A stretch of DNA of 64,000 nucleotides, taken from Oegoconia quadripuncta (lineage: Eukaryota; Arthropoda; Insecta; Lepidoptera; Autostichidae). Made by a program: the position numbers and the translations under genes. The notes beneath the pieces are model-generated. The model searched no databases. It saw nothing but the letters and a program-made list of their open reading frames with translations, and was not told where the DNA came from. Of this stretch, positions 34,024 to 63,480 are shown one piece after another. Within the stretch, counting starts at the first letter, position 1. Every line of letters starts with the position of its first letter. The DNA lies in NCBI GenBank assembly GCA_949316235.1, contig OX438742.1:11159315-11223314 (forward strand), read 5' to 3'.

Positions 34024-34142
34024 TTTCGGCCATTATCAGCGCTGCCAGCAACGCAGTCATTACAGATCGCGGCAGTATAATTACTTTTATTTTACTACAT
34101 TATGCATCGCTAATTAATTCTGATGTAATGATGGTTTTGTTT

Positions 34143-34285
34143 TTTTTTATGCACAACGGTTTAGCAATTGACCTCAATCACACCTGATGTTAAGTGAAGA
34201 TGAGGCCGAAGGCCGTACTGATTCGGAAACCCAAATATTTGGAGAACTGGCTATCTTATCTCTGACAAACGGAACACAACAATAT
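34143..34285 (-). mobile_element. SINE family C, 3' body (minus)
   Basis: TTTTATGCACAACGGTTTAG, ACCTGATGTTAAGTGAAGAT, GAGGCCGAAGG and ATCTTATCTCTGACAAACG. Truncated. Confidence 0.6.
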
Positions 34286-46487: not shown

Positions 46488-47216
46488 ATATATATATGTT
46501 CTACATCAAAACATTTCAGGACTTATCTCTAAATCGGACCATTTAACTATTTGTTTACAAGAATTGCAGGAACTGGGCACACCTGTAGACGTATTATGTA
46601 TGACCGAGCATAATATGACACCGGAACGTGAGACATATCTAACAATACCGAATTATAAACTACCCACCAGTTTTTCGACAAAGCGCGAGGAGGAGCTTGT
46701 ATTATTGTTAGAGTGGGTACAGAATATAGAGTGTTAAATGATATCTTTAAGTACGCCGTAAAAAATGTTTTCGAATGTTGTGCCATAGAACTTATAAAAC
46801 ATTGTATTGTTATTGCATGTGTATATAGAGTTCCGATGAACAGACGGCAATGTATAGACATTTTTCAAGAACAGTTTGAATTAATGTTAACTAAAATTTC
46901 CAATTTTAGTAATAAAAAAGTAATTATAGGTGGGGATTTTAACATTAATATTTTAGAAGCTAACGCTCTTTCCAAAGATTTCAAACGGCTTATTTTATGT
47001 CATAATCAGACACTGCAATTTAATCAACCTACTAGATTAGAAAGTGGAACTTGTCTTGATAACTTTGTACATAATATAAAGGGATGTAATGGTGAAGTAC
47101 TTGACTTCAATTTATCGGACCATACTGCGCAAATAATCAAATGTCCTGTAAAGAAAACATGTGCGCTTAAGTACTGGCGAGTCAACCAACGTGACTACTG
47201 CTCTCATAATTTGAAT

Positions 47217-48385
47217 GGAGGTTGCGACAAGTCGTCCCCACCAGACCAATAACGACGCGACATAGCTCATTAGAAAGCTCTTTTCATTGCCGTCATTTGT
47301 TACTATGGCGGCCAGTCTCAAAGCTGTGTGTGAAAAAAGTTATAGCTAAAATAAGAACAACTTAATTGTAGTTAAGAAATGTATTGAATCAGACCCCCAC
47401 TAAAACCAATAACGACAAGACATACGTCATTAGAAAGCTCTTTTCATTGCCGTCATTTGTTACTATGGCGGCCAGTCTCAAAGCTGTGTGTGAAAAAAGT
47501 TATAGCTAAAATAAGAACAACTTAATTGTAGTTAAGAAATGCATGGGATCAGACCCCACCGAAATCAATAGCGACGAGACATAGGTCACATTATTATGAA
47601 AGCTCTTTTCATCGCTGTAGCTACTTACTATGGCAGTCAGTAATAAGTCCCTTAGTGACTATTACATCAAGCACGGGAAAAATTTCTTTTTACGTGCCTT
47701 AAACCACACCGCACACTTATAAAATATTTTAAGAGAGATTTATATTGAGAGAGTTTTTACAATAGTATAGTAGTAGTCAAATAAACCCTCGTTATTATAT
47801 TTTACAAAATAGAAGAAATAAACATGTAGTTTGAATATAGAACATAGACTAATATACTTGACGTAATTTGTCATTTTAAATTATATTACTCATTAATAAA
47901 AATCGCGTATAGTAGTATTGGAGATTTTATTATGGAGCGACCTAACAACAATTGCGTTATGTGCCGACGAGGACTGCATAATAGAAGATACCAAAGACAC
48001 CTTTTGACCGAGACTATCCCACACCATCAACCTGCCTTTGCATCTTATGTGCAAGAAAATGCACTATTGGAGGTTTGCTTTAGCTTATACTCTTTGGCTT
48101 CTTTATTTGAACTAGAAACATAACTTTTGTTATGTGACTGCATTTTTCAATAAAAAGCAATTTTATCTTATTTCTGTCAGGTCGCATTCAATAACACCCG
48201 TTACCTCTGTCACCGTTGCTGGCAAAGTGTTGAAATTGCAGTTCGATTGCCGCCGGTGCAACCACCAGAGGAGAACGCGGTGCAACCTCCAGACGAAATC
48301 GCTGTGCAACCCCCCGAAGAATACATTGTTCATGAAGAAAATACAGCATTTCTTCAAGTGCCAAATTATATACGGGCACCGAACA
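47217..48385 (+). repeat. left inverted arm of the transposon
   Basis: Reverse complement of 50044-51383. From 47.55 kb to 48385 I see no difference from the other arm. The first 40 bases are diverged, and it has two rather than three 160-bp units. Homology ends abruptly at ...GCACCGAACA, codon 68 of exon 2. Confidence 0.85.
47233..47552 (+). repeat. two 160-bp subterminal tandem units, left arm
   Basis: AAGCTCTTTTCATTGCCGTC recurs at a 160-bp spacing (47274, 47434). Each unit runs CCAATAACGAC, GGCGGCCAGTCTCAAAGCTG, GTTATAGCTAAAATAAGAAC, CTTAATTGTAGTTAAGAAAT. Part of a third, diverged unit follows to about 47.64 kb. Likely subterminal repeats of the transposon. Confidence 0.8.
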
Positions 48386-48462
48386 TACATCTCGTGAACA
48401 CAATTTTTTTTTTATTAAAAACTGGTTTCGCGTTGGCTACAATCTCACCTGATGGAAAGTGA
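47932..48462 (+). pseudogene. truncated transposase gene in the left arm (exon 1, intron, start of exon 2)
   Basis: A mirror copy of the transposase 5' end. Exon 1 spans 47932-48072, donor GAG^GTTTGC. A 108-bp intron follows, with acceptor TTTCTGTCAG^GTC. Exon 2 codons run from 48181 to 48385. Beyond the arm the frame reads on for about 25 more codons into unrelated repeat DNA and stops at 48460-48462. If spliced, the product would be about 140 residues with the N-terminal Cys cluster (CVMC...YLCHRC) and the three VQPPEE/VQPPDE repeats, but no catalytic domain. It points toward the transposase gene (convergent). Whether it is expressed is unknown; a dominant-negative or DNA-binding regulator is a possibility only. 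Confidence 0.6.
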
Positions 48463-48511
48463 CGATGTAGCCGAAGATGTATCACGCGCACCCAGGAAAT
48501 GCCTATTCACT
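48386..48511. repeat. foreign repeat fragment between arm and transposase stop
   Basis: Poly-T, then GGTTTCGCGTTGGCTACAAT, CTCACCTGATGGAAAGTGAC and GATGTAGCCGAAGATGTATC. This is a diverged piece of the CACCTGATGGAAAG-type repeat seen at 35.74 and 36.86 kb. It marks the junction where the element's own 3' end is missing. Confidence 0.5.
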
Positions 48512-50497
48512 CTAGACTGGACCTATTCTCTGTTGTCGTGACTGGATGCGTCCTCTTAACAACCAACTATTTTGAGGTAAATTGTATAGATGCATGTTAC
48601 CGCGTCCAACATCTCTAAATACTTCTATTATATAAACTCCATTTTGCAAATGTTCACCGCAGTACGATTTTGAAAGTTTTACTTGATAGGAGCCCAACGC
48701 AAACATTATAACATCGTTTTCTGTAAGTGATGGAAAGTCATGCAAGTCAAGTTCGTTAGCATCTATTCTCGTGAATGGAACCCTTTGTCTGTTAAGATTG
48801 TTGTCATTGACATAATCATATAAACGATTAGGCATATTATTTTTTTGGTTAATAGTGTTTACTATAACTTCGGCGTTAATATTGTCTACAATTGGTTCAC
48901 GAAAAGCATTTATTAGGGCACCCGCTATTTTAAAGTCTGTAAATAAGTTGTGTAATGTAGTGTTGAAGTAATCTTGGCGCAATAACTTGAAATCGCGTTT
49001 GAATCTCCCGTTGATTACTTCAACTACCCAGCGACATATAGTTACTAGTCTCGATTTATTGGATTGATCAGTAGTCAACTGTGTTTCAAACCTATCCTTT
49101 GTGGGTGGTAAATGTACTTCATATCCACATGTTTCTAGACTCGCAACAGAATCACGAAAACCTCTGTCAAGAATAAATACATCGTTTTCTTGCAAAAACC
49201 AATTAATCGCGCCGTTTTCATTATTAACCAAATCTGACATAATCGTTGCATCTGACTTTGTAGCAGCAAAAGGGCCTAATATGTCGATAATATATCCATC
49301 GGAACATACAATGAGAAATGGTTTTAATAGGTTAAGATACTTATGTAAGCTATACGACAAACGTTGGAAAGAAAAATTGGAACTACTTTGAATGTACGCA
49401 TAAGTCCCATCGCAAATAACGATAGCTTTTGAGTTTTCGTCATTGCCAAATAGAGCTTTAGGTATCGACAAGTTTCTATCTAGAACATTATCCCTAGTTA
49501 AATGATTAAAACCCATGTGACGAGAAACGAACTCTGTTATTAAACAATTTCTCACTATTTTTAATATTCTTTCAATACTTCGGCGGGACATCTTAAATAA
49601 GCTAGCTAGTCTGAGATTTGTCTCTCCGGTTCGCAGTTTTGTTAAATAAATTCCTAATGCCAACCGTGGTTTACGGTGGCTTTCGATCAACGAAGGAGTT
49701 TCATGAACTATTGTGTTAAACTGTAAGTTATTAAAACCGGTCCAAAAATGCATGTCTACATCTGTTACAGCACCTATTGTTTCAAAGTCTAAATGTCTAC
49801 TGTATTGAACAGCTTTCGTCAAGATTTCACAAATGTCCGCAAATTGATCACTGTTAAAGTCATGTGTCACAGAACAAAATCTTACTAACTCATTCCATGC
49901 ATTTCCTTCAAGGTGTTCTATACATGTGCGAGCATTTTGGGGAACATATAATTTATGTTCCGTTAGTAAATACACCTTTATAGTCTCAGGTATACGTCTA
50001 TTCGGATTATTCTGACAGTTTTGAAAGATGCAGTGTCTAGACGTGTTCGGTGCCCGTATATAATTTGGCACTTGAAGAAATGCTGTATTTTCTTCATGAA
50101 CAATGTATTCTTCGGGGGGTTGCACAGCGATTTCGTCTGGAGGTTGCACCGCGTTCTCCTCTGGTGGTTGCACCGGCGGCAATCGAACTGCAATTTCAAC
50201 ACTTTGCCAGCAACGGTGACAGAGGTAACGGGTGTTATTGAATGCGACCTGACAGAAATAAGATAAAATTGCTTTTTATTGAAAAATGCAGTCACATAAC
50301 AAAAGTTATGTTTCTAGTTCAAATAAAGAAGCCAAAGAGTATAAGCTAAAGCAAACCTCCAATAGTGCATTTTCTTGCACATAAGATGCAAAGGCAGGTT
50401 GATGGTGTGGGATAGTCTCGGTCAAAAGGTGTCTTTGGTATCTTCTATTATGCAGTCCTCGTCGGCACATAACGCAATTGTTGTTAGGTCGCTCCAT
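48512..50497 (-). CDS. DDE transposase (PIF/Harbinger-ISL2EU-Spy group), two exons
   Basis: Model: exon 1 50357-50497 (47 codons, ATG context TTATTATGG), donor GAG^GTTTGC, 108-nt intron, acceptor TTTCTGTCAG^GTC, exon 2 50248-48512. The phase is 0 and the product about 625 residues. The long exon-2 frame from 50182 begins with a non-ATG codon, which is why I extend it through the splice. Residue numbers below count from 50182. N-terminus: CVMC (exon 1), YLCHRC, VQPPEE repeats, then a Cys/His cluster C51/C56...C87/H90. HTH-like segment 180-210 (TNLRLASLFKMSRRSIERIL). DDE_Tnp_4-type catalytic core: D258 (VICDGTYAYI), D339 (FILDRGFRD), E388 (RWVVEVINGRFKR). All three acidic residues are present and no stop or frameshift is seen, so it may be functional. 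It would cut and paste the element from its ends. Confidence 0.8.
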
Positions 50498-51383
50498 AAT
50501 AAAATCTCCAATACTACTATACGCGATTTTTATTAATGAGTAATATAATTTAAAATGACAAATTACGTCAAGTATATTAGTCTATGTTCTATATTCAAAC
50601 TACATGTTTATTTCTTCTATTTTGTAAAATATAATAACGAGGGTTTATTTGACTACTACTATACTATTGTAAAAACTCTCTCAATATAAATCTCTCTTAA
50701 AATATTTTATAAGTGTGCGGTGTGGTTTAAGGCACGTAAAAAGAAATTTTTCCCGTGCTTGATGTAATAGTCACTAAGGGACTTATTACTGACTGCCATA
50801 GTAAGTAGCTACAGCGATGAAAAGAGCTTTCATAATAATGTGACCTATGTCTCGTCGCTATTGATTTCGGTGGGGTCTGATCCCATGCATTTCTTAACTA
50901 CAATTAAGTTGTTCTTATTTTAGCTATAACTTTTTTCACACACAGCTTTGAGACTGGCCGCCATAGCAACAAATGACGGCAATGAAAAGAGCTTTCTAAT
51001 GACGTATGTCTTGTCGTTATTGGTTTTAGTGGGGGTCTGATTCAATACATTTCTTAACTACAATTAAGTTGTTCTTATTTTAGCTATAACTTTTTTCACA
51101 CACAGCTTTGAGACTGGCCGCCATAGTAACAAATGACGGCAATGAAAAGAGCTTTCTAATGACGTATGTCTTGTCGTTATTGGTTTTAGTGGGGGTCTGA
51201 TTCAATACATTTCTTAACTACAATTAAGTTGTTCTTATTTTAGCTATAACTTTTTTCACACACAGCTTTGAGACTGGCCGCCATAGTAACAAATGAAGGC
51301 AATGAAAAGAGCTTTCCAATGAGCTATGTCTCGTCGTTATTGGTCTTGGTGGGGACTGGTCCTATACATTTCGCCCCTTCTCC
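50044..51383 (-). repeat. right inverted arm of the transposon (promoter side)
   Basis: Contains the right terminus, three 160-bp units, the presumed promoter, exon 1, intron and first 68 codons of transposase exon 2. It is about 170 bp longer than the left arm, mostly one extra 160-bp unit. Confidence 0.85.
50891..51345 (-). repeat. three 160-bp subterminal tandem units, right arm
   Basis: TTCTTAACTACAATTAAGTT begins at 50891, 51051 and 51211. The units are near identical (one has ATAGCAACAAATG for ATAGTAACAAATG). Reverse complement of the units at 47.23-47.55 kb. Confidence 0.85.
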
Positions 51384-53504
51384 TTTAAAGAATGCCTTAA
51401 TACGTTATCATTCACGGATGTATATAATACTGACGATCCAAATAAAGCTTATAACCTCTTTATGGACACCTTTCTACTTTTTTATGACCTATGCTTTCCT
51501 TATGTAACGAAAAAAAGGTACTGCATTATGAGACCTAAGTGGCTTTCAAAGGGTATTAGACAATGTAGTAAACAAAAACGTAAAATGCTCTGGCGTTATC
51601 GAATACAACGTAATGATTATAATAAAAACGCACTAAAAACTTATTCACATAGATTAAGAAAGATTATAAAATTGACACAATATTCCCAAAACAACCACTA
51701 CATATATACATCTAATAATAAATCCAAAGCTACTTGGCACGTAATAAATAAAACAAAAACTAATTACCCAAGAGAACCTATAACAAGAATTTTAAACAAT
51801 GGTCAGTATATCTCTAACCCCACAATAATAGCTGAAGCATTTAACGATCATTTTGTTAACCAAACGGAAACTGTAAATACAGGCTTTAATCAGAGTCACC
51901 TAAGTACACACAGTAATCCTCACTCCATTTTCGTTGGTCCTACTGCTCCACAAGATATTAGGAAGACAATTACGTCCCTAAAGAATACAAATAGTGTGGG
52001 TTATGACGATGTCTGTACAAAGGTTCTAAAACATATTTCTGAATGCATAATGAATCCACTTAGTTATATAGTCAATCTCAGTATATGTAAAGGCTTGTAT
52101 CCCGATAAATTGAAACCCGTAATAGTGACTCCACTTTTTAAAAAAGGTGACCGCGAAAAAATGAATAACTATAGACCAATTGCGCTTATTTCAATTTTTT
52201 CCAAAATATTCGAAAAAGTTATATATTCGTCGCTGTATTCATTTCTGGATAAACATAATATTCTAGTCGAGGAACAGAAAGGTTTCCGAAAACAAAAAAC
52301 AATTAATATGGCAATATACGACTTAGTACATAGGGTAATGTTACATATGGACAAAAGAAAACATGTATGCGCACTGTACATAGATTTGTCTAAGGCATTT
52401 GATTATGTAGACCATAACATTCTACTTAATAAACTCAATCATTACGGAATTCGGGGTAATATCATTGAACTTTTAAAATCTTATTTAGTTAAAAGAGAAC
52501 AAGTAACTGAACTTAAACAAATTTGCCTAACCACAAGCCGAGAAAAAAAATATCAGTCTAAACCTACCCAAATAATGCGTGGTGTACCGCAGGGTAGCGT
52601 TCTGGGACCCCTGCTATTCCTGCTGTATATAAATGATCTCCCTAAACATATTAAACATCCCATGGTCCTATTTGCGGACGATGGTACTGTAATTATTGAG
52701 TGCGATGACATAAATAACTACGAAGATGAAATAAATGGAACAATAGCAACAACTGTTGATTGGCTAAATCGAAACAAGCTGCATATTAATTTAGACAAAA
52801 CCAAAATTATGCATTTCTCTCAAAGAATACCTAAAATGACTCTCAAAATAAACTATCTAGGTAAAGATATCGAACCCGTCGATGTTACTAAGTTCCTAGG
52901 TATGAATATAAATAGAGACATGTCTTGGACAGCACATTCGGAAACTGTAATAAACAAACTGTCACAATATTCATTTGCGCTAAGTAAATTAAGAAAATTG
53001 GCTAACCGTGAAGTAGTCCTCACAGCATACCACGGCTTTGTTGCTTCGACTTTGCGATATGGTATAATTTTTTGGGGAAATTGCACTTTAAAAGAAACAA
53101 TATTTAAAGCCCAGAAAAGGTGTATCAGAGCAATATGCGGTTTAAAATCTACTGAAAGCTGCGTAGAACACTTTAAAAATCTAAATCTTTTATCATTGCC
53201 TAGTTTATATATTTATGAAATTTCAGTATTTGTTAAAACAAATATTCACCTTTATCAAGTATATTCACAGATTCACGACAAAAACTTACGACATAAAAGA
53301 AACCTCTGTGTGGTACCAAGTAACACTGCGCTACTACACAAGAGTCTGATCTGCTTAGCTCCGAAAATTTATAACAAACTGCCAATCGACATTAAGAATT
53401 GTGATTTGCTTAAATTTAAACGAGTGTTGTATGCTTTTTTGGTGAATAAGACGTATTACAAATTAGAAGATTATTTAGATGATAAGGACATTGCAATGAC
53501 CTGA

Positions 53505-54520: not shown

Positions 54521-55866
54521 AATGAAATGAAATGAAATGAAATGAAATGAAAATCATTTATTCATGTAGGCAATACAATATGCACTTATGAACGTCATTT
54601 GTTTTTTAAACTACCACTAGCTCGGAACGCGACCACTACTGAGAAGAGCTAGCGAGAAACTCAGAGGGTTTGTCTCTTTTCAATAAATCATGTACAATCA
54701 AGAAAGGTTACAACAATTTTATATATCGTGTAGAGGAGCCGTTTAATCCCATGGATTACTTTCATTAATATAGTCTGAAATTTTGTAATATCCCTTTTTA
54801 CATAATTTTTGTTTTATAATAAGTTTAAATTTATTAAGCGGAAGATTCCGTATATCCATGGGAACCTTGTTGTAGAAGCGCACACATTGACCTCTGAATG
54901 ACTTATTAACTTTACTAAGTCTACTAAAAGGTACAGCTAATTGATTTTTGCTCCTTGTATTGACATTATGTCGGTCACAATGTTTCTCGAATGAATATAT
55001 ATTTCTCTTAACATATACAAGATTTTCATATATATATTGTGACGAAAATGTTAAAATATTAATTTCTTTAAATATTTGTCTTAATGTATCTCTTGACCTT
55101 AATTTATAAATTGCACGAATAGCTCGTTTCTGTAAGAGAAATATGCTATCTGTATCAGCAGCGTTTCCCCACAGCAAGATACCATATGACATCAAGCTGT
55201 GAAAGTAGCTGAAGTAGACTAAGCGCGCTGTTTCAATATCACAGATATTTCGAATTTTCTTAACAGCATATGCGGCAGAACTGAGTCTTTTCATTAGTTT
55301 TTTAATATGGGGTCCCCACTGTAACCGAGAATCTAAAGTCATACCAAGGAATACAGTTGTGTCCACAAGTTCCAACTGTTCATGTTTAATTCTTATTTTG
55401 GTGGCAACCTGTTCAACATTAGGTAATGAAAATCTAAGACATTTCGTTTTGTTCTCATTAAGGAGCAAGTTATTGACTGTGAACCATTCGACTATTTTTG
55501 AGACAGCATTATTCACTTCGTCATATGCTAATTGATATCTGTCAACTTTAAATATTAAAGAAGTGTCATCAGCAAACAATACGATCTCGTGTCTTTCCTT
55601 AGCGAGGTGAGGTAAATCGTTGATATAAACTAAAAATAGGAATGGTCCCAGTATTGAACCCTGCGGTACGCCCATGCTAACTGCAGATCCTGATGATCTC
55701 TCTCCATTGATATCAACCCTCTGAATTCGATCACGTAGATATGATTTCATTAGGCTGAGTGCTTGGCCCTGGACGCCATAATGGTGTAGTTTCATAATTA
55801 AGATGTCATGGTGGACGCAATCGAAAGCCTTGGACAGATCACAAAAGATGTCAATGGCGTCCTGTG
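54521..55866 (-). mobile_element. LINE-B, 5'-truncated copy
   Basis: A 1.35-kb 3' portion of LINE-B with the same 3' UTR and (TTTCA)n tail (GAAATGAAATGAAATG on plus, 54519-54550). AATTGGA at 54514-54520 and 55867-55873 is a 7-bp target duplication. I counted only about four base differences from 58.95-60.26 kb. Truncation lies inside the RT domain, just upstream of the IFCDLSKAFD box. Confidence 0.9.
54743..55866 (-). pseudogene. LINE-B ORF2 C-terminal part
   Basis: Open from the truncation point to TAA/TGA at 54743-54745. The last 350 codons (from MKLHHYGVQG) read the same as residues 614-963 of the intact ORF2, including GVPQGSILGPFLFLVYINDL and FADDTSLIF. It lacks the endonuclease and half of the RT, so it cannot act alone. 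The open frame reflects youth, not function. Confidence 0.85.
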
Positions 55867-56039
55867 AATTGGAGAATTAGAGTCTTGAATATCAAAATAT
55901 CGGTTTCCATTGAAACTACGATTCAGGCTTCCAACAAAAACCGATATGATTATAAACACTATAACATTTAGAATAAGATCGTTAGGAGTTAACGACCGAA
56001 ATCGGTTGATATCTATGTCGAGACTGCGGGCCCATGCAG

Positions 56040-59131: not shown

Positions 59132-62023
59132 TTAATCCCATGGATTACTTTCATTAATATAGTCTGAAATTTTGTAATATCCCTTTTTACATAATTTTTG
59201 TTTTATAATAAGTTTAAATTTATTAAGCGGAAGATTCCGTATATCCATGGGAACCTTGTTGTAGAAGCGCACACATTGACCTCTGAATGACTTATTAACT
59301 TTACTAAGTCTACTAAAAGGTACAGCTAATTGATTTTTGCTCCTTGTATTGACATTATGTCGGTCACAATGTTTCTCGAATGAATATATATTTCTCTTAA
59401 CATATACAAGATTTTCATATATATATTGTGACGAAAATGTTAAAATATTAATTTCTTTAAATATTTGTCTTAATGTATCTCTTGACCTTAATTTATAAAT
59501 TGCACGAATAGCTCGTTTCTGTAAGAGAAATATGCTATCTGTATCAGCAGCGTTTCCCCACAGCAAGATACCATATGACATCAAGCTGTGAAAGTAGCTG
59601 AAGTAGACTAAGCGCGCTGTTTCAATATCACAGATATTGCGAATTTTCTTAACAGCATATGCGGCAGAACTGAGTCTTTTCATTAGTTTTTTAATATGGG
59701 GTCCCCACTGTAACCGAGAATCTAAAGTCATACCAAGGAATACAGTTGTGTCCACAAGTTCCAACTGTTCATGTTTAATTCTTATTTTGGTGGCAACCTG
59801 TTCAACATTAGGTAATGAAAATCTAAGACATTTCGTTTTGTTCTCATTAAGGAGCAAGTTATTGACTGTGAACCATTCGACTATTTTTGAGACAGCATTA
59901 TTCACTTCGTCATATGCTAATTGATATCTGTCAACTTTAAATATTAAAGAAGTGTCATCAGCAAACAATACGATCTCGTGTCTTTCCTTAGCGAGGTGAG
60001 GTAAATCGTTGATATAAACTAAAAATAGGAATGGTCCCAGTATTGAACCCTGCGGTACGCCCATGCTAACTGCAGATCCTGATGATCTCTCTCCATTGAT
60101 ATCAACCCTCTGAATTCGATCACGTAGATATGATTTCATTAGGCTGAGTGCTTGGCCCTGGACGCCATAATGGTGTAGTTTCATAATTAAGATGTCATGG
60201 TGGACGCAATCGAAAGCCTTGGACAGATCACAAAAGATGCCAAGGGCGTCCTGTGAACCCTCCCAGGCATCAAAAATATGTTGTAACAACTCAATACCGG
60301 CATCTGTTGTCGAACGTCCCTTAGTGAAACCAAATTGTTTGGTTGTAATCAAATTATTCAAATTGAAATGTGAGAGCAATTGATTTAAAATTAAGCTTTC
60401 AAATATTTTACTTAAAGTCGGTAAAATTGAGATCGGTCGGAAGTTTGTACGAACTTGAGTATCACCAGACTTAAATAACGGAATTACTTTACTATGCTTC
60501 ATCATATCAGGAAACACACCATTATTAGTACACTGGTTGAAGATAATAGCTAAATGAGGAGCAATATCCTCTATAATAAAACTAATTATTTTAACTGATA
60601 GACCATGAAGATCCGCTGTCCTTTTCATATTTAAAGATTTAAATGTCTTAATAATACATAATGGTGTAACGTGATGAAATTTAAATACATCGGTACATTC
60701 GGTTACATTTTGTTTTAGTAATAATTCAGCGAGAGTGGGGGAAGAATTAAGAGACCTAGTTATCGATACTGGAATGTTAGTGAAAAAACTTTCAAACGCG
60801 TCCGCGATTTCAGGAGCATTAGTTAATGTTTGACCTTCTACGTTAATTTGGTAATCGAAACTACGAGTTTTGACTTTCCCAGTTTCAGAGTTGATTACTT
60901 GCCAGGTCGTCTTAATCAGGTTTGAGCTACTTATAATCTTGTTACGAACGAACATAGATTTGGCTATCGTACATACTTGCTTAAATAGCTTTGAGTAGTT
61001 CCTGACATAGTTTACAAAAAGCTCATTCTGATTTATTGTTTTTTCTTCATATAGCTCGTAAAGTTTTTCTCTACTTCGATGTATGCCCACTGTGGCCCAG
61101 TCACTAAACTTCAAGCCATCATTAATTTTTATTAATTTTGTTTTAAAAACAGAGTCGAATTCATTCTTCGTTAAATTAAATAAAGTATTATATAGTTTAT
61201 TCGGATCCTTACAGTAGGATAAGGTGGGTAATTTAACTTTAACATTATTACTAAAGGTTTTTAGCCGACCTTCATTTATAGGATTACATATTATAAGTCT
61301 TGTGTTATATTTTCCATTAAATGCAAAAGTAGCCAACTGACCACTATGATCCGATTTTAATTTATTAATTATGTTCTTGTAAGTTGGTTCAACATTTGTG
61401 AATATATTGTCGATACAAGTTGCTGTCGAAGAAGTAATTCTAGTAGGCTCTAGAAATAAGTTTTTGAGGTTATGACAATTGAATAACGATAATAACAAAT
61501 TACTAAATGGAGATGAACTATCTAAGAGATCTATATTAAAGTCGCCACAGACAATGACACATTTATTATTATTACAGATTTTATTTAAAACTTCATCCAT
61601 AACTTTTTCAAAAGTAGTAAATAATGACTTCCCACGTCTGTATACGCTTACTACAACAAGCTGCTCCAATTCTACACAAGCGAGTTCGATAGTTTTTTCA
61701 ACAGACAAATTGACGATGTCGGTACGTTCTTTGTATTTTAAATTGTTACGAACAATTATCAAAGAACCCCCATGATTCGCTGTTTGTCTGTTAAATGAAC
61801 TACCAACCTGGTGATTTTTGAAACTAAACATGAACTGTTCTGACGTAATCCAGTGCTCAGTGATACATAGTATATCAATTTCGTTGGAGATCAAAAACAG
61901 TTCAAGTTCAAACTCTTTGTTATACATGCCGCCCTGAATATTTTGGTGCACCAGGTTTATTTTACAGATATCTTTTTCGCGTGAATTTTTATTTTTATTG
62001 GTACTTTTTAAATTATTTGACAT
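59132..62023 (-). CDS. LINE-B ORF2: endonuclease and reverse transcriptase, intact
   Basis: A 963-codon ORF, typical of full-length CR1-type ORF2. Endonuclease (residues about 20-235): N28 in VHQNIQGG, E56 in CITEHW, VYRRG 127-131, D161/N163 in GDFNIDLLD, and SDH 224-226; all usual catalytic residues of the exonuclease-endonuclease-phosphatase fold are there. RT (about 510-780): PLFKSGDTQVRTNFRPISIL, GFTKGRSTTDAGIELL, D599 in FCDLSKAFD, GVPQGSILGPFLFLVYINDL and the catalytic FADD 687-690. A C-terminal region follows with LLQKRAIRAIYKLRS and NKVPMDIRNLPLNKFK. The protein nicks target DNA and copies the LINE RNA onto it. ORF1 ends 71 bp upstream. No stop or frameshift is seen, so this copy could encode an active enzyme. 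Confidence 0.95.
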   Translation of the reverse strand: MSNNLKSTNKNKNSREKDICKINLVHQNIQGGMYNKEFELELFLISNEIDILCITEHWITSEQFMFSFKNHQVGSSFNRQTANHGGSLIIVRNNLKYKERTDIVNLSVEKTIELACVELEQLVVVSVYRRGKSLFTTFEKVMDEVLNKICNNNKCVIVCGDFNIDLLDSSSPFSNLLLSLFNCHNLKNLFLEPTRITSSTATCIDNIFTNVEPTYKNIINKLKSDHSGQLATFAFNGKYNTRLIICNPINEGRLKTFSNNVKVKLPTLSYCKDPNKLYNTLFNLTKNEFDSVFKTKLIKINDGLKFSDWATVGIHRSREKLYELYEEKTINQNELFVNYVRNYSKLFKQVCTIAKSMFVRNKIISSSNLIKTTWQVINSETGKVKTRSFDYQINVEGQTLTNAPEIADAFESFFTNIPVSITRSLNSSPTLAELLLKQNVTECTDVFKFHHVTPLCIIKTFKSLNMKRTADLHGLSVKIISFIIEDIAPHLAIIFNQCTNNGVFPDMMKHSKVIPLFKSGDTQVRTNFRPISILPTLSKIFESLILNQLLSHFNLNNLITTKQFGFTKGRSTTDAGIELLQHIFDAWEGSQDALGIFCDLSKAFDCVHHDILIMKLHHYGVQGQALSLMKSYLRDRIQRVDINGERSSGSAVSMGVPQGSILGPFLFLVYINDLPHLAKERHEIVLFADDTSLIFKVDRYQLAYDEVNNAVSKIVEWFTVNNLLLNENKTKCLRFSLPNVEQVATKIRIKHEQLELVDTTVFLGMTLDSRLQWGPHIKKLMKRLSSAAYAVKKIRNICDIETARLVYFSYFHSLMSYGILLWGNAADTDSIFLLQKRAIRAIYKLRSRDTLRQIFKEINILTFSSQYIYENLVYVKRNIYSFEKHCDRHNVNTRSKNQLAVPFSRLSKVNKSFRGQCVRFYNKVPMDIRNLPLNKFKLIIKQKLCKKGYYKISDYINESNPWD

Positions 62024-62094
62024 ATTATTTCCAATTAAAATATTATTACTTGTAACCTTAACTTGGCCAGAGGAGGTCTCTGTTGTCTTATTAT

Positions 62095-63360
62095 CTAATT
62101 TAAATTATTGGAAACATATTCCAATACGTTAATATTACAAGTTGTCTGCTCAATAGGAGCTGATTTTGCCTGTTCAATAGAAACAGGTTTTTCTTTAGCC
62201 AACGTATTGTTGGCTGAGTTATACAAATAATAATATAAAATGTTGCAAATGCTATGTTTGCTATATCTATTGAGATAATACATATCTCTAGTCTGATGAA
62301 ACTTTGAACTAATTATACTATTAGTGTCTATCATGTGAAATTTAGAAAATCTACACGTTAAAGTATGTAACGTCAAATTTAATTGGTGTCTGATATTGTT
62401 TTCATAGTCCGAACTATGACTGAAGGGAAAGGCAAAAAGTACAATTTTATTTACATTTTTTAGGTCATTCAATTGACCAAAATAATTTATAATTTGTCTT
62501 TTATTAGTATTTCCCCTCCTGCCTACACATATTATTAATGTAGTATTCCTGGGGTATTCGGAAGCTAATATACATTTTAAAATGTCACAGTATGAAGCCC
62601 CAGGCATACAATGATTAATAATCGCTGGGCCCATACGACGACTAAGTTGTAAACCGAGTTGTTTACCAATCTCATCACAATAGATACGTATGTTCGAGAG
62701 GGAGGCACTTTTACATACCGAAGCGACTGTGACACACGGTTCCACCGCCTGGCTTGGGGAAATACTCGCAGGCCGGGTCGAGCCGGGCGAAGTCGCGTCA
62801 GAATCACAAAGGTGATTATTTATCAAAGAATTAAATCTATCATTATTATAATTACCTAACTCCACCAACTCATCGAAGGCCAGTTCGCACTCCCGCAATT
62901 CTTTTTGCGAGGTTTGGTATTTATCATTGATAAGCCTTAACGACTCGGTTAGCCTATCAATTTCGGACCGAAGGTTCCGTGTGTCACGTTCAAAACCTAA
63001 CCTTGAATTATCTAGATTTAATTGACAGGTTTGTAGGTCCTGCACTAATTTACAATTGTCTCTCTTTAAATTGGCATATAAAGTATTTACATTATTTTTC
63101 TTAAGTGATCGTTGAGTGGTTTTGATAATTTTTTTGGTTTTAGCATATTTTTTCAACTTGTTTCTGCTCAAGGTTACATTTATGGATCGAGGGCTCATTG
63201 TGTCGTTTACAGTTAGATCTATGATTCCCGAATGATTAAGAACCGGTTTAGTTTGTGATTTATCGGACGAGGTGTCGGACGCGCCGCTGGTACTTCCCAT
63301 CAACTCATTGTATAATGACTGAGTTCGCGATGACTTGATAGAATCTATTTCGAATTGTGT
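62095..63360 (-). CDS. LINE-B ORF1: coiled-coil and SGNH-esterase-like protein, 5' end possibly truncated
   Basis: Open from the element boundary at 63360 to a stop at 62095-62097. The open frame continues 10 codons further (to 63390), but those codons lie in flanking repeat DNA and are not part of the gene. The first ATG inside the element is at 63300-63298 (MGSTSGASDTSS). Counting residues from 63390: a Lys-rich segment 78-100 (RNKLKKYAKTKKIIK); a heptad-like coiled coil about 105-180; a Ser/Pro linker; then 233-390, an SGNH-like fold with CMPGASYCDILKC, ICVGRRGN (block III, N294) and LNRYSKHSIC (block V, H379). The canonical GDS block appears as YCDEIG, so hydrolase activity is doubtful. 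Such ORF1 proteins bind the LINE RNA and ORF2 protein. Probably nearly complete. Confidence 0.8.
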   Translation of the reverse strand, partial: TQFEIDSIKSSRTQSLYNELMGSTSGASDTSSDKSQTKPVLNHSGIIDLTVNDTMSPRSINVTLSRNKLKKYAKTKKIIKTTQRSLKKNNVNTLYANLKRDNCKLVQDLQTCQLNLDNSRLGFERDTRNLRSEIDRLTESLRLINDKYQTSQKELRECELAFDELVELGNYNNDRFNSLINNHLCDSDATSPGSTRPASISPSQAVEPCVTVASVCKSASLSNIRIYCDEIGKQLGLQLSRRMGPAIINHCMPGASYCDILKCILASEYPRNTTLIICVGRRGNTNKRQIINYFGQLNDLKNVNKIVLFAFPFSHSSDYENNIRHQLNLTLHTLTCRFSKFHMIDTNSIISSKFHQTRDMYYLNRYSKHSICNILYYYLYNSANNTLAKEKPVSIEQAKSAPIEQTTCNINVLEYVSNNLN

Positions 63361-63480
63361 CTTTATGATGTCCGGATATAACGCTCGCAATACGAAGCCA
63401 GCGAATCAATACTTCTTGGAGTGAAAGAGAATACCTTCGATTTAGCACACTCTCTCATCCCAATAATAGCGAATAGGTAA
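63361..63480 (+). repeat. repeat family D, 3' part, continued after LINE-B
   Basis: CTTTATGATGTCCGGATATA, CCAGCGAATCAATACTTCTT and GGAGTGAAAGAGAATACC, then CACACTCTCTCATCCC. This completes the copy begun at 58873. Confidence 0.7.

Follow-up and report, generated by a model that had tools for sequence, protein, structure and literature searches.

How does a DNA transposon come to carry the start of its own transposase gene, facing inward, at both of its ends? The question is raised by a 4167 bp element in a stretch of 64,000 nucleotides (the window) from the lepidopteran Oegoconia quadripuncta (assembly GCA_949316235.1, contig OX438742.1, forward-strand positions 11,159,315 to 11,223,314; coordinates below count from the first base of the window). 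The element lies inside a long interspersed nuclear element (LINE), and its inverted arms of more than one kilobase hold the beginning of a DDE transposase gene. We consider it likely that a Spy-like transposon lost the end of its gene and its 3' flank during repair, and that its 5' end was copied in inverted orientation in their place.

Limits of the element

The limits 47217 and 51383, proposed in an earlier note on this DNA, are borne out by the host: the LINE reading frame ends at 47216 and is picked up again at 51384. As seen at the protein level, the element inserted without target duplication, because the LINE protein has at the insertion point exactly one residue fewer than each of the 120 listed relatives (of 136 above threshold), in which the extra residue is K in 98, I in 9, L, T and R in four each and N in one. 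The flanks of the element, AAT and TTT, have no repeat of 2-3 bp in common; for the left one, either the LINE copy was already one codon short or three bases were lost. Both ends of the element start with GGAG and retain the sequence of the terminal unit. The named source organisms of the transposase and LINE relatives are, we take it, Lepidoptera (moths and butterflies).

Inverted arms and outer ends

A repeat search returned the arms as 47245-48385 and 50044-51184 (1141 nucleotides) and reported them as 100% identical, whereas a base-by-base count gives five mismatches, four of them at 47257, 47258, 47265 and 47266 and one at 47462/50967. Since these four cluster where the left end has a sequence of its own, we regard only 47267-48385 and 50044-51162 as the copied part, in which 1118 of 1119 positions agree. 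Chance similarity of the arms is excluded by this identity. The copied part comprises most of two 160-bp tandem units and part of a third, the 5' flank, the 47-codon exon 1, the 108-nucleotide intron and 205 nucleotides (68.3 codons) of exon 2, much as the earlier note had described with its 68 codons of exon 2.

The outermost sequences differ, as had likewise been noticed before. The outer 50 nucleotides on the left and 61 on the right share 45 identities in 61 aligned columns, and for the outermost 19 and 28 nucleotides the alignment score is no better than 7.3% of 2000 shuffles. Identity falls abruptly outside 47267 and amounts to 99.9% inside it. Unit 1 of the left array (47267-47404) is identical to unit 2 of the right array and shows 2 differences from right unit 1 and 7 from right unit 3 in 138 positions; we interpret this as an indication that the left array was copied one unit out of register. 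The earlier idea, by which the original terminus survives on the left and the 5' end of the gene was added to it in inverted form, is supported by this succession of a divergent outer 50 bp, a nearly perfect arm and a shifted register. Template switching or gene conversion, two of the processes named in the earlier note, would be expected to produce such a step from divergent to identical sequence with a shift of one tandem unit. The single difference between the arms gives no date for the event, because conversion between them would erase differences.

The transposase gene and the fragment at its end

The predicted transposase of 625 residues matches DDE_Tnp_4 in Pfam above the cut-off (E 5.9e-10) and HTH_Tnp_4 below it (E 1.3e-4), with further matches to DDE_Tnp_1 and, weakly, to SIX1_SD. 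It keeps the DDE domain and departs from its family at LLRGRIQSR. Among the 120 relatives listed (of 332 above threshold), 112 have a CxC..CxH motif near the C-terminus, always in the last 30% of the length, and the window protein is without it. This motif is presumably a SWIM-like finger: Pfam SWIM matches P0014 below the cut-off (E 0.078) and is not listed for P0001, P0016 and P0077, and the source names of P0016 and P0023 include "SWIM-type". The window transposase thus appears, from the alignment, to have lost its last ~75 residues (75 in P0001) including the C-terminal finger. The truncated product is probably not a working transposase and this copy most likely non-autonomous, while the element might still be mobilised in trans, both ends having terminal-unit sequence.

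A structure model of the transposase (mean predicted local distance difference test score, pLDDT, 79.7) has Mos1 transposase as its lone PDB match at E up to 0.001, with TM-scores of 0.14 and 0.21; at best this may fit a DDE core, and it is uninformative on the family. A sequence search of solved structures gave no match at E up to 0.1, and an Rfam scan of 46500-52000 none at gathering scores. The THAP zinc module has the pattern C2CH. Residues C51, C56, C87 and H90 of the transposase (frame 50182-48512), invariant in 29 aligned sequences, have a spacing somewhat like that module, and no THAP domain is among the Pfam matches. The inverted arm ends just before residues 51-90, which hold these four.

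After LLRGRIQSR, the minus strand continues with a 138-bp fragment, a second TCACGA, GATGTA and the inverted arm. The A-run side of the fragment matches, over 73 columns, a diverged copy with the same A-run near 34.1-34.2 kb (~34120-34260); its other half has no match within the window. TCACGA-GATGTA may represent the next codons of the gene, with D in place of H, because relatives with the IQSR-H pattern often go on with V: the pattern occurs in 89 of the 120, followed by V in 44, I in 22, T in 11 and other residues in 12. The fragment is better read as the trace of a retroelement that inserted toward the end of the gene and duplicated 6 bp there. The earlier note had seen here a foreign fragment of 126 bp that replaced the 3' region; the fragment measures 138 bp, is flanked by TCACGA and sits in the gene, and it is the inverted arm that took the place of the 3' end.

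Family assignment

Judged by target and flanks, Spy, of the PHIS superfamily, would be the best fit, and we make this assignment weakly. Spy prefers AAA at its 5' and TTT at its 3' flank and makes no duplication, and cgSpy used AAWTT in ~60% of its insertions in human HepG2 cells (PMC11304231). Spy elements also occur in Lepidoptera (PMC11304231, PMC4482050). The window element shares with Spy the lack of a target duplication, TTT on one flank and a DDE transposase of more than 500 residues with a DNA-binding domain (HTH_Tnp_4, below the cut-off). It differs in its other flank, AAT instead of AAA, and in arms that exceed 1.1 kb and hold coding sequence, compared with terminal inverted repeats (TIRs) of 5-691 bp in Spy (PMC11304231).

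ISL2EU elements are defined by an AT target duplication and a THAP-domain transposase (PMC4482050); the AAT and TTT flanks show no such duplication, and the element has no second long open reading frame (ORF) of the ISL2EU type (YqaJ) beyond overlapping frames, its 3' region being lost. PIF/Harbinger elements duplicate 3 bp of target (PMC2213677), which is not seen here, and the remaining element has no long second ORF of their Myb/SANT type, shorter frames not having been scanned and the 3' region being lost. Galileo belongs to the P superfamily, and no P-element family is among the Pfam matches of the transposase.

The earlier note had held that ordinary elements of these groups have short terminal repeats that do not cover coding sequence. 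As a statement on length it is overstated: ~93% of PIF/Harbinger TIRs are indeed under 60 bp, but their range is 5-1042 bp (PMC4482050), and that of Spy was given above. As a norm on content it has to be qualified by the termini of Galileo (PMC4168063) and of Mu killer (PMC3440606), into which transposase sequence was recruited.

Proposed origin

The structure could have arisen in three steps. The transposon entered the LINE without a target duplication, which is evident at the protein level. A 138-bp piece of a retroelement would then have inserted near the end of the gene and given rise to the second TCACGA; its sequence is plain to see, the process is our interpretation. In a further step, the order of which relative to the retroelement insertion is not fixed, a break, perhaps from excision, would have removed the stretch that separated the 3' terminal repeat from the end of the gene. 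The 3' terminus that survived may have annealed to the homologous tandem array at the 5' end with an offset of one unit, and primed synthesis would have copied ~1.1 kb inward, through the 5' flank, exon 1 and the intron up to 205 nucleotides into exon 2. The copied strand would finally have been joined to the broken gene end at a point 12 bp past the retroelement fragment. The outcome would be two inward-facing gene starts, long and nearly perfect arms and a transposase without its last ~75 residues. Template switching in gap repair and the extension of TIRs by internal sequence have been proposed for Galileo (PMC4168063, PMC3573991), and strand-annealing repair of excision sites has been discussed for yeast carrying a PIF/Harbinger-type element (PMC10288884), which we mention as background only.

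Several points weigh against this reconstruction. It rests on one copy of the family, and a normal 3' end, microhomology at the junction and the order of events are beyond its reach. The left flank is AAT rather than the AAA of Spy and one codon short of all 120 LINE relatives, and the invariant C51, C56, C87 and H90 recall the THAP module given for ISL2EU (PMC4482050). Only 73 columns of the 138-bp fragment are matched. The IQSR-H pattern is missing in 31 of the 120 transposase relatives, and HV occurs in only 44 of the 89 that have it. Eight of the 120 relatives are likewise without the CxC..CxH pattern; seven of them end early or differently, and P0018 has the usual C-terminal end with a sequence outside the search pattern. 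That the fragment and the arm junction are only 12 bp apart is a coincidence without explanation in any account.

Alternative explanations

We favour pairing of the element's own terminus followed by inward copying because the outer end is divergent, the inner arm is 99.9% identical and the unit register is shifted. A fusion of two separate copies explains the same facts less well. If a deletion had joined two neighbouring elements of opposite orientation, so that a 5' piece of one adjoins the other, itself cut short on its 3' side, two outward-facing 5' ends and a truncated gene would result as well. A separate copy, however, is expected to be evenly diverged and to have the same 5' terminus, whereas here the outer ends differ while the inner arm agrees at all but one position, and LINE flanks that lie in one frame, one codon short, suggest one insertion. 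We regard such a fusion as decidedly unlikely. Near-perfect palindromes of kilobase size are a known product of inverted chimeras and hairpin reads, which speaks for an artefact of library or assembly as the source of the left arm. Against this, the arm deviates at one base, its array is shorter by one tandem unit, its outer 50 bp are its own, and a fitting LINE flank lies beyond it, where a simple foldback should rather have duplicated the right flank; we hold an artefact to be very improbable.

The small distance of 12 bp between the insert and the arm junction speaks for a single complex repair event, in which the 138-bp fragment is filler DNA from the same template switching and TCACGA a microhomology. 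This is at odds with TCACGA on both sides of the fragment, the second copy being followed by what appears to be the continuing gene, and with the A-run that ends the fragment and is common to the dispersed copy, as in a retroelement insertion, so that we give a single event only a small chance. Compatible with repair from the element's own 5' end is a later history in which the rearranged element was moved on by a helper transposase, with many copies of the same junctions and long arms ordinary in a subfamily. The GGAG and the terminal-unit sequence kept at both ends, a truncated frame open for 625 codons and the clean limits in the LINE would agree with it, as would two Galileo copies of Drosophila willistoni that have similar extended arms and different target duplications (PMC4168063). 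On the other side, the window has no further copy of the element, apart from the repeat near 34 kb, and none was found in two collections that say little on this matter: viral contigs gave none by protein, 77 pattern-matched stretches of which none was confirmed by alignment, and no match of a 24-base unit pattern, and prokaryotic genome contigs gave 87 stretches by alignment, likewise none confirmed. We think continued movement of this kind unlikely.

Features of the locus

The coordinates of the element, its parts and its host are given in Table 1.

Table 1. Position and strand of the features at the element and in the host LINE
Feature	Position	Strand	Remarks
Whole element, 4167 bp	47217..51383	- (transposase gene strand)	within LINE, without target-site duplication
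Host LINE left flank, endonuclease region	46713..47216	+	ends AATTTGAAT; Exo_endo_phos_2 E 0.0015, under curated cut-off
Host LINE right flank, reverse transcriptase	51384..53504	+	begins TTTAAAGAA; RVT_1 E 3.3e-34
Left outer end, taken as original 3' end, not copied from right end	47217..47266	+	45 identities in 61 columns with right end
Left 160-bp tandem array, 2.2 copies	47236..47588	+	
Left arm, inverted copy of the element's 5' end	47267..48385	+	1118/1119 identical to inverse of 50044-51162
Exon 1, second copy, inverted	47932..48072	+	
Start of exon 2, second copy, inverted (to 48385), continuing into insert	48181..48462	+	with exon 1, a 140-codon frame
GATGTA, read as putative last gene remnant, then junction to inverted arm	48386..48391	-	many relatives: SR-H-V
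TCACGA, second copy of duplication	48392..48397	-	
138-bp retroelement fragment with A-run	48398..48535	-	provides stop codon and AATAAA at 48416
TCACGA, gene-side copy of 6-bp duplication	48536..48541	-	
Transposase exon 2, to premature stop	48512..50248	-	joined product 625 residues
Right arm, copy continuous with remaining gene	50044..51162	-	repeat search, gapped alignment, base-by-base count
Intron, 108 nucleotides, GT...AG, predicted	50249..50356	-	
Transposase exon 1, 47 codons	50357..50497	-	N-terminus similar to P0014 and P0016
Right 160-bp tandem array, 3.3 copies	50841..51372	-	
Right (5') outer end, additional 160-bp unit and terminus	51163..51383	-	

Other LINEs lie on the minus strand of the window. 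One, at 59135-63405, has long open frames: a stop-to-stop frame of 990 codons with endonuclease and RVT_1 and, upstream and overlapping it by 7 bases, a frame of 436 codons with no convincing Pfam match. Another LINE reverse transcriptase, at 54746-55876, has a frame of 377 codons (RVT_1 E 3.3e-21).

Possible consequences

Because the two gene starts face each other, a fold-back RNA is possible. By analogy, the element might act in an animal as Mu killer does in maize: convergent or fold-back transcripts would form a 1.1-kb stem and give rise to small RNAs that silence the family to which it belongs, and a 140-residue N-terminal product of the left arm might serve as a repressor; we consider all this very doubtful. 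The AATAAA at 48416, in the retroelement fragment, may stop the transposase transcript short of the left arm, and the 140-residue product had no relative in one protein search (7 candidates, lengths ~77-245 residues). If the structure is transcribed, the likeness to Mu killer could extend to function.

The locus also provides a readable case of how long TIRs may originate, with the own terminus kept, a register shift of one unit and a copied tract that stops within the gene. In this view, tandem arrays close to the termini of a transposon would serve as pairing sites for the mirroring of its 5' end, and the extended TIRs of Galileo would fit the same scheme.

Comparison with known systems

In the open-access literature searched we found no report of a PHIS element with the beginning of its transposase gene inside the TIRs. 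The mirrored-end structure is of a kind already known, with clear precedents in Mu killer and Galileo.

In Mu killer, a derivative of maize MuDR, both ends stem from the transposase-side end, and the halves of the inverted duplication reach 1.298 kb into the transposase gene (PMC3440606). The window element likewise has two terminal repeats that derive from the end next to the transposase start and include the 5' part of the transposase gene in inverted form, except for its left outer 50 bp. The two belong to different superfamilies; the central part of MuDR is gone in Mu killer, whereas most of the transposase gene remains between the arms here, and Mu killer silences MuDR, while the window element is known from its DNA sequence alone.

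In Galileo of Drosophila, TIRs were extended by tandem repeats and internal sequence, and faulty gap repair with template switching has been discussed as a source of defective copies (PMC4168063, PMC3573991). Long TIRs with arms 99-99.9% identical, tandem repeats in some of them (~140 bp in D. willistoni copy 112) and internal sequence drawn into them, with more than 500 bp of the transposase ORF in D. willistoni copy 147, are features shared with the window element. Galileo differs in its superfamily and in the 7-8 bp duplications that it makes in D. willistoni. A nearly complete copy of that species recruited the final 69 bp of the ORF, whereas the window element carries in its arms the 5' start of the gene together with the intron.

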